Both the position numbers and the translations under genes were made by a program. Source: Candidatus Kapaibacterium sp. (lineage in GTDB: Bacteria; Bacteroidota; Ignavibacteria; Kapaibacteriales; WFXC01). Taken from it: a stretch of DNA of 55,677 nt. How positions within the stretch are numbered: position 1 is the first letter of the stretch; the number at the start of each line of letters is the position of its first letter. The DNA lies in assembly GCA_026996895.1 (NCBI GenBank), contig JALWJX010000002.1:1-55677 (forward strand). Direction: 5' to 3'. This document shows positions 24,511 through 26,588 of this stretch, one piece after another. The notes below the pieces were generated by a model that saw only the letters and a list, made by a program, of their open reading frames with translations, ran no database searches and was not told the DNA's origin.

Positions 24511-24746
24511 CGACAGACGATCTTCTTTTGGTTACGTATTGTGTTGTCTTGGTAGATAGTGGTGCTTGAGCGAACTTAGCTGGATTTATTGAAGCCGGGG
24601 TGTGGCTTCGCCGAAAAAAGACTGTAGGTACGAACAGACGGTTACAGAGACCAGTCGAAAGCATCGGTTGGTGTATAAGGTGTGGTACGCCCAAGATGGA
24701 TGGGATCGTCCTAATGTAGCGACATTGATGATCCAGGAGAAAAATC

Positions 24747-25334
24747 GTGATACCGTTTCACGTACACCGATTGAAGGGAATTTGGCGATGGGGATGGGCG
24801 TTAGATGTTCACACCATACAAAGTCGACGTTTACCTGATGGAAAACTTGATACTCAGCGCACTCCGCTGGGCGAGCGGCTTTATCGGCTTAAGTATCACA
24901 ACGACATTTCCCAGATATCGCCTATTGCAGAGGTTGTGTCTTATTTTATTCGTATGCAGGTCAAAGTATACGCGTATCTATCAGCCATCATTCCAGTTCC
25001 TCCATCGAATCCCGATCGTCCTTTTCAGCCAGTTCAAGAGTTGGCGCTCGAAGTTGGTCGTAGAGTGGAGATTCCCGTAGCCACTGATTATCTGAAGAAG
25101 ATCAAAAAGACACCACCCCTGAAAGATGTCGATGATACTCAGAGTCGAAAACAACACTTGCGAGGAGCGTTTGTAGTGGCTGATCGTCGCTTTGCTGGAA
25201 AATATGTATTGGTACTGGACGATCTATACCGGTCAGGGGAGACATTGAGTGAAGTAACACGAGTTTTGATGCAGCAGGGAAAGGTGTCCAAGGTCTTTGT
25301 TCTAACGATAACGAAAACGAGGACCAAGCGATGA
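24747..25334 (+). CDS. ComF-like phosphoribosyltransferase of a PRTase-DprA module
   Basis: A 195-residue protein. The C-terminal half is a type I phosphoribosyltransferase: strand VLVLDDLYRSGET (about 154-166) is the PRPP-binding loop with its two acidic residues, and IIPVPPSNPDRPFQP (about 81-95) is the ComF-type flexible loop region. The N-terminal third (WALDVHTIQS, RTPLGERLYRLKYHND) is the helper segment seen in ComF-like enzymes that lack zinc fingers. The GTG start at 24747 is supported by AGGAG eight bases before it. Its stop overlaps the DprA-like start by 4 bp (ATGA). Pairs of a DprA and a phosphoribosyltransferase are known as the DprA-PPRT anti-phage system; the match here is by composition and order. 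Confidence 0.8.
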   Translation: MIPFHVHRLKGIWRWGWALDVHTIQSRRLPDGKLDTQRTPLGERLYRLKYHNDISQISPIAEVVSYFIRMQVKVYAYLSAIIPVPPSNPDRPFQPVQELALEVGRRVEIPVATDYLKKIKKTPPLKDVDDTQSRKQHLRGAFVVADRRFAGKYVLVLDDLYRSGETLSEVTRVLMQQGKVSKVFVLTITKTRTKR

Positions 25335-26494
25335 ACGACGAGGGATTTGCGTGGTTTTTAATAGTGCGTATCCAGGGAATCGGAGAAAAGTTTTTGTATT
25401 TCTTAGCACAGCTCCAGGAACAGGGAAGGTGGAAACCGCCGAAGTTGCAAAGTGAGGAGACTATTCGAGTCTGGATACAGGATTTTTGTGAGGCCTGGCA
25501 AAATTTGCGATCTCACATAGAAAGTGCGTCATATCGACGGGGGTGGCGCAGCGTATGGGAAGTGGTGAAGAATGGAGCAGCTTCAGTCGAACGAATTCAA
25601 GCCTTTTATGATGAATATCGATACCTGTATGATCGTGGAATCGTTTTCGTGTACCCAGGACATCGGTGGTATCCTCGGCAACTGTTTCTTGGAGGCAGTG
25701 CTCCTGTTCTGTGGGCACAAGGATACTTACCATTGCTGCAGGCGCCCAGCGTTGCAATTGTTGGTTCTCGTAGCGCTTCATCCGGAGCCTTACAAATGGC
25801 GTATAACTTTGCAGCGGAATTGGCTGGGCAGGGATGGAACGTTATTTCAGGGTATGCCAGAGGGGTCGATACTCAGGCCCATCTTGGTGCTCTTGAGGCA
25901 GGGGGGACAACAACAATGGTGTTGAGTTTGGGAATGCTCAATTTTACGCGAAAGCGAGCATTGGCAAAATACTGGGATAAAGATCGGACGAATGTCTTAG
26001 TACTCTCACAATTTGCTCCACAAGAACCCTGGAGAGCTCAAAACGCTATGCGGCGAAACGGAGTCGTGAGCTTGTTAGCAAAGGCAATGGTGGTCGTGGA
26101 GTCTGGAGCTCACAAGGACAGCAATGGACGATATAGCGGCACCTTTCAAGCAGCGTCCTTTGCTTTGCAACAACGAATTCCTGTGTTTGTAGTCAGTCCT
26201 TCTTGTTTCACCGGCAAGATTCCGGAAGGAAATCAACAATTGATATCGAAAGGTGCGATCGAGTTTTCGCCTGCGGAGTTTCCGACAATCATTTCCAGCT
26301 TATCATCTCGTTCCGTCGAACGCAGGGAAGTTGCACAACGCCGTATCACGGGCTTAAAGGAAGTTCAGCAAGAAAAACGGTCTGGGAATAGCAATACTCA
26401 GAGCATATTGCCTCCTCAATCGCATCCTGTCCAATCTCTTCAGCCACGCCAGCAGTACGAAGATCCTCCACAGCAGCTTCCAATAGACTTCTGA
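25331..26494 (+). CDS. Divergent DprA/Smf-family protein of a PRTase-DprA module
   Basis: A 387-residue protein. Residues 1-30 look like a helix-hairpin-helix remnant (RIQGIGEK), about 110-130 match the YPxxL approach segment, and 139-312 form the DprA Rossmann/SLOG domain: VAIVGSRSAS (141-150), YARGVDTQAHLGALEAGG (175-192), VVVESGAHKDSNGRYSGT (254-271), GNQQLISKGAIEF (300-312). The usual FPxRNR of DprA reads NAMRRNG here, and SGSLITA reads SGTFQAA. The C-terminal 70 residues are Gln/Ser/Pro-rich and lack the winged helix DML1 domain. These changes and the coupled phosphoribosyltransferase argue against an ordinary competence DprA and for a defence module. Confidence 0.82.
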   Translation: MNDEGFAWFLIVRIQGIGEKFLYFLAQLQEQGRWKPPKLQSEETIRVWIQDFCEAWQNLRSHIESASYRRGWRSVWEVVKNGAASVERIQAFYDEYRYLYDRGIVFVYPGHRWYPRQLFLGGSAPVLWAQGYLPLLQAPSVAIVGSRSASSGALQMAYNFAAELAGQGWNVISGYARGVDTQAHLGALEAGGTTTMVLSLGMLNFTRKRALAKYWDKDRTNVLVLSQFAPQEPWRAQNAMRRNGVVSLLAKAMVVVESGAHKDSNGRYSGTFQAASFALQQRIPVFVVSPSCFTGKIPEGNQQLISKGAIEFSPAEFPTIISSLSSRSVERREVAQRRITGLKEVQQEKRSGNSNTQSILPPQSHPVQSLQPRQQYEDPPQQLPIDF

Positions 26495-26588
26495 AGGCTT
26501 ATTGAGCAGTTAGTCGACGCACTGGCTGCGCACCACAGCACTCCCAATGAACTTCTGAATGTGCTGACAATAGGGTTGCAAGAAAAGG

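Follow-up and report, generated by a model that had tools for sequence, protein, structure and literature searches.

Known systems close to the locus studied here include ShosTA and PsyrTA/RqlHI. The DprA-phosphoribosyltransferase (PRTase) system of Rousset et al. comes from a P2-phage hotspot (PMC9122126), and not from P4-like satellites as a preliminary description of the present locus had stated. According to the account in PMC12593503, which cites Pu et al. 2025, ShosT has PRTase and pyrophosphatase activity and purine pools are disturbed, ShosTA leads to DNA duplications and filamentation, and ShosA is a DNA-binding antitoxin with T7 Gp0.7 as the trigger; another activator that has been named is phage SSB (PMC10732053). 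Structures of ShosTA are available in the PDB (8zva-8zvd and 9vzo). In RqlHI, toxicity maps to the PRTase and is lost in D663A, and RqlI binds and suppresses the PRTase domain of RqlH (PMC4670107). Iyer et al. 2017 described the PRTases of phages and plasmids as a distinct group with an arginine in common with ComFC (PMC5512222). No functional test of stand-alone phage or plasmid PRTases with SLOG partners was found in the literature searched.

In this study, we analysed a stretch of 55,677 nucleotides from Candidatus Kapaibacterium sp. (contig JALWJX010000002.1; hereafter the window), in which a PRTase gene is followed by a DprA-like gene. The results suggest that this pair is a variant of the DprA-PRTase toxin-antitoxin systems whose PRTase lineage is shared with plasmid and prophage PRTase-SLOG pairs.

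The gene pair and its insertion site

Both genes and their ATGA overlap were found where the preliminary description had placed them. The features of the locus are as follows.

24511..26588, no strand: inserted cassette, beginning just past the EF-G stop codon and ending at the stop codon of the converging gene
24747-25334, + strand: PRTase gene, 195 aa, GTG start, predicted toxin/effector
24765..24860, + strand: family-specific N-terminal beta hairpins, residues 7-38 (model secondary structure)
25206..25244, + strand: PRPP-binding motif VLVLDDLYRSGET, residues 154-166 (family alignments)
25331-26494, + strand: DprA-like gene, 387 aa, predicted antitoxin/sensor
25331..25334, + strand: ATGA overlap of the two genes, read as translational coupling
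25331..25633, + strand: N-terminal helical domain, residues 1-101 (AF2 model)
25634..26266, + strand: Rossmann (SLOG) domain with GSR and SGYARGVD (motifs, AF2 model)
26012..26059, + strand: FxPxxPWxxxxAMxRN signature replacing FPxRNR, common to PsyrA/ShosA-type DprAs
26267..26491, + strand: C-terminal helix and disordered Q/P-rich tail, no winged helix (AF2 model)

An AGGAG sequence lies about 8 nt 5' of the GTG start of the PRTase gene, and the N-terminus of the protein aligns with those of its relatives. The ATGA overlap is likewise present in L188, L200, L201, L202, L237 and other related loci. The pair is flanked by an EF-G gene and a converging gene for a DUF2231-like membrane protein. 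The same site is empty in two congeners, whose flanks are 97-98% (G002) and 84-93% (G001) identical to those of the window; there, the EF-G and membrane protein genes are separated by 153 bp (G002) or 180 bp (G001) of unrelated sequence. These empty sites indicate that the cassette fills the intergenic gap at 24511-26588. Scans of the cassette for mobility signs revealed no inverted repeats or integrase and only a chance-like 19-bp direct repeat, the Rfam scan gave one weak match below the gathering score, and the promoter and terminator scans remained at chance level. The GC content of the cassette (47-49%) differs little from that of the flanks (about 50-52%), so composition argues neither for nor against transfer. 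No defence island was found around the cassette; of the six flanking genes scanned, only that for a NUDIX protein gave a PADLOC match, a weak one.

The genome carries a second, standard DprA on contig C92, which scored 248 bits with Pfam compared with 136 for the cassette DprA, and its own ComF on contig C115, while two same-genus genomes have a single DprA match each. The pair is accessory: the cassette DprA is neither the genome's only DprA nor present genus-wide. It is well supported that the pair does not consist of housekeeping genes. The empty site in two congeners, the separate DprA and ComF, and the placement of the PRTase outside the ComF clade (see below) together indicate that these are not competence genes, in line with the original proposal of a DprA-PRTase defence or toxin-antitoxin pair. 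ComF/ComFC and housekeeping DprA have folds and core motifs in common with the pair, whereas the pair lacks the zinc finger and the winged helix, is accessory, and has a PRTase in a separate clade.

The two proteins compared with ShosTA and PsyrTA/RqlHI

The PRTase is a stand-alone type-I enzyme with a pI of 10. Pfam recognised only a Pribosyltran domain, below threshold, and the score with the NCBIfam comF model was 36.6 bits, far short of its cut-off of 233.6. Residues D158, D159, and G164 of the PRPP-binding motif do not vary among the aligned family members. The N-terminal hairpins occupy the place of the ComF zinc finger, and the protein has no cysteine, compared with seven in the genome's own ComF. 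We modelled the PRTase with AlphaFold2 (pLDDT 92), and the best PDB fold was H. pylori ComF (TM 0.65 on query); further matches were PurF and the PRPP-Mg-bound ShosT (8zvc, TM 0.54). A BFVD search returned generic PRTases only.

The DprA-like protein matched Pfam DNA_processg_A with about 135 bits (E 3e-39) and retains the GSR and SGYARGVD motifs. It has lost FPxRNR (AMRRNG instead), has SGTFQAA at the position of SGSLITA, and lacks the winged helix still present in the DprA on C92. The motifs and the AF2 model thus bear out the earlier view of a divergent DprA changed in these three respects. The FxPxxPWxxxxAMxRN signature provides no independent evidence, because it had itself served to collect the comparison loci. 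The model has a pLDDT under 50 for residues 357-387; its fold matches include S. pneumoniae DprA (TM 0.80 on target) and ShosA 8zva (0.65 on target). The DprA tree was built without the long branches that had been joined in a quick version. The window DprA fell outside the housekeeping clade and was, together with that of locus L107, sister to the PsyrA clade (support 92/72, long branch); the AU test did not reject a grouping of the window DprA with housekeeping DprAs (p 0.215, long branch). In the phylogeny proposed in the preliminary description, the PRTase is thus separate from ComF (see below), and the placement of the DprA is uncertain.

We built the PRTase tree from 68 rows, and a 76-row version agrees with it. 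The window PRTase fell in a clade of 22 rows (support 98/89), which is sister to ComF (both together 98/88; ComF clade 100/100) and lies apart from the RecQ-PRTase clade (99-100/99) and from the PRTases of about 300 aa that accompany other DprAs.

With PADLOC, the PRTase scored 59 bits against PsyrT (PRTase part only, positions 540-687 of 689) and 25 against ShosT, and the DprA-like protein scored 149 (149-157) bits against PsyrA and 108 against ShosA. The PsyrA score is not to be over-read, since the same model gives up to about 135 bits for the phylum's housekeeping DprAs; for RecQ-linked DprAs it gives about 250-457. The phage P2 reference system (P2_4C9 record) gave 973 bits for ShosT and 765 for ShosA. 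On the sequence comparisons, the PRTase tree is a better guide to the family than the PADLOC scores.

The preliminary description had likened the pair to the DprA-PPRT family (ShosTA), and the features tested do not support this family. The window has two adjacent genes for a PRTase and a DprA-fold protein without a helicase, as in ShosTA, and the DprA model matches ShosA. However, PADLOC prefers PsyrT and PsyrA, and the gene order and size differ: P2 ShosTA has the DprA followed by a 424-aa PRTase, whereas the window has a 195-aa PRTase followed by the DprA. The PRTases barely align (BLASTP E 0.02), and the DprAs are 24% identical. PsyrTA/RqlHI shares the order of PRTase then DprA with the window and supplies the best PADLOC models. 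However, its defining feature is the fusion of a RecQ helicase to the PRTase, which the window lacks, and the window PRTase lies in another clade. RecQ coding was absent upstream of the window PRTase in the three forward frames, and the genome's clear RecQ lies elsewhere, on contig C28. Judged by the features tested, the window belongs to neither ShosTA nor PsyrTA/RqlHI.

Two observations on PsyrTA loci were made in passing. PsyrA-like DprAs stand in tandem beside RecQ-PRTases in L047-L049, L060-L062, and L064, with at most four matches per genome (family f46, genus g136; G310, G419, G317, G298, G251, G287, and G215). In Candidatus Altarchaeum (L105:370-5178), a 1603-aa open frame ending in a RecQ-PRTase module is followed by PsyrA, and this locus is a PsyrTA in an archaeal MAG.

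Relatives of the PRTase and their partner genes

The nearest relative of the window PRTase is that of L107, from a Bipolaricaulota MAG (51-53% identity), where a DprA again comes next; over 250 residues this DprA shares 42% identity with that of the window. Further members of the PRTase clade are listed below.

Plasmids: L188-L191 and L229-L233
Prophage or viral contigs: L193-L197
Same phylum: L200 and L201
Same order: L202 and L237
Three-gene loci: L126 (Ignavibacteria) and L087 (Flavobacterium)

In the genomes sampled, the PRTase family was present in 3 of 123 from the order and in 4 of 395 from the phylum. A peptide-pattern search of genome contigs with the window DprA and of viral contigs with the window PRTase returned no relatives; an alignment-based search of the viral contigs gave six PRTase loci. 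R91, after the PVPPS loop, is invariant in the window PRTase family. As this residue aligns near an arginine of the genome's ComF, the window PRTase may belong to the phage and plasmid group of Iyer et al.

In the two three-gene loci (L126:1-3478 and L087:2359-7183), a PsyrT (RecQ-PRTase) is followed by a window-type PRTase and then by PsyrA, and the middle PRTase is extended by a long additional N-terminal domain. In Rickettsiales bacterium Sesoko1 (L118:482-2155), the first half of a single 558-aa frame matches the PRTase and the second half DprA, and this frame may be a natural PRTase-DprA fusion.

Fourteen loci were found through the PRTase alone (L188-L191, L193-L198, L200-L202, and L237). 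The next gene encoded a Rossmann/SLOG-fold protein in all 14, overlapping the PRTase gene by a few nt or lying up to about 15 nt from it. The partners are mini-SLOG proteins of about 175-190 aa, similar SLOG proteins with a longer tail or a fused HTH, or DprAs; the HTH fused to some of them is of the addiction-antidote type (PF21716/TIGR02684). DprA is the partner in the window, L107, L202, and L237. The small partners gave weak DprA/LDcluster4 profile matches and show a visible VFIAGS...GDADGxD pattern; in the profile-profile comparison with the DprA set they reached E 0.002 and 13% probability, with 2 of the 15 input rows mis-framed. Weak profile evidence and the motif pattern thus make a SLOG fold likely, short of proven, for these partners.

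The mini-SLOG partner matched about 98 plasmid records, 55 of the 98 being conjugative plasmids, and the PRTase lay directly upstream in all six records inspected. Four plasmid relatives lie beside defence genes, namely CBASS and VapC; R-M; CD-NTase, HNH, and SIR2; and a restriction nuclease. Among the plasmid matches H85-H124 (e.g., L229, L230, L231, and L239), the PRTase and mini-SLOG occur on enterobacterial and rhizobial plasmids, with the mini-SLOG mostly annotated as hypothetical protein.

The pairs on mobile elements share with the window the PRTase clade (98/89), a directly downstream Rossmann partner, and coupling, but their partner is a mini-SLOG or SLOG with HTH, whereas that of the window is a full DprA. 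The chromosomal pair is thereby linked to a plasmid and prophage PRTase-SLOG family whose PRTase PADLOC recognises weakly and whose mini-SLOG partners it does not recognise. It is about an even call whether these loci form a separate PRTase-based toxin-antitoxin/anti-phage family, in which a constant PRTase lineage is combined with an exchanged Rossmann antitoxin/sensor or is added to PsyrTA, with the window as its DprA branch. The members of such a family would occur in several phyla, both on plasmids and prophages and on chromosomes. The window pair shows that more than one PRTase lineage has given rise to DprA-PRTase modules. Should one PRTase function with a mini-SLOG (about 185 aa) as well as with a full DprA, a comparison of these partners would distinguish toxin neutralisation from phage sensing, a question that also concerns ShosTA and RqlHI.

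Proposed function and alternative explanations

We consider it probable that the pair is a horizontally gained, two-gene toxin-antitoxin/abortive-infection module with a PRTase effector and a DprA antitoxin/sensor. This view is supported by the empty sites in two congeners, the separate housekeeping DprA and ComF, the PRTase clade outside ComF, the SLOG/DprA-fold gene beside the PRTase in all 14 loci, the defence genes near four plasmid relatives, and two relatives with a broken PRTase frame (see below). The cassette was probably inserted recently, and the DprA-like protein would be made from the same coupled transcript as the PRTase. Toxicity, neutralisation, trigger, and substrate are taken by analogy from RqlHI and ShosTA. 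The DprA-like protein would bind the PRTase as well as single-stranded or abnormal DNA, keep the PRTase in check, and release it during phage replication. The PRTase would bind PRPP and, once released, perturb the PRPP/purine nucleotide pool, and this disturbance would lead to DNA stress and growth arrest. Several results count against the module: the PsyrA score of the window DprA is little above that of housekeeping DprAs, the AU test leaves the DprA grouping unrejected, and no island surrounds the cassette. In addition, the isolated RqlH PRTase domain was not toxic in E. coli (PMC4670107), and the window PRTase likewise stands alone.

Three other explanations were weighed against this module. 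Loss of the RecQ helicase from a PsyrTA/RqlHI, with the C-terminal PRTase domain and PsyrA remaining, would account for PsyrT and PsyrA being the best PADLOC models, and genuine RecQ-PRTase and DprA pairs in the same order do exist (G013, G004, G010, and G024). However, the window PRTase groups with stand-alone PRTases, has its own start, Shine-Dalgarno sequence, and N-terminal hairpins, and is preceded by no RecQ remnant in the three forward frames. The PRTase tree largely refutes this explanation; we rejected it on the tree and the upstream frames, and regard it as highly improbable. A helper in DNA uptake or recombination, that is, a second ComF/DprA pair aiding natural transformation, would agree with ComF being the sister clade of the PRTase, with the closest folds being H. 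pylori ComF and S. pneumoniae DprA, and with the room that the AU test leaves for housekeeping kinship of the DprA. This is nevertheless quite improbable, given that the pair is accessory in the genus beside housekeeping copies, that the zinc finger and winged helix are missing, and that relatives are carried by plasmids and prophages, in some cases beside a partner with an antidote-type HTH (TIGR02684).

A pure addiction module that maintains mobile DNA and has no phage-sensing role is suggested by the many conjugative plasmids among the relatives (55/98) and by the addiction-antidote HTH fused to some SLOG partners. The window cassette, however, is chromosomal and without mobility genes, and anti-phage activity is established for known relatives among the DprA-PRTase systems (PMC9122126), so we consider pure addiction unlikely.

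Two relatives from the same order bear on the role proposed for the PRTase in the toxin-antitoxin/abortive-infection module. In G012 (L202, a single-contig genome) and G431 (L237), the pair is present with the ATGA overlap and an intact DprA, and each PRTase contains one in-frame TGA in an otherwise intact frame. The two stops lie at different positions, each after CGT:

L202 (G012), near 1980, minus strand: in-frame TGA
L237 (G431), near 1681: in-frame TGA

In the sequences compared, the two PRTase frames are broken independently, and read-through or sequence errors may explain the stops instead of true breakage. A broken PRTase beside an intact DprA would be expected if the cost of the pair lay with the PRTase.
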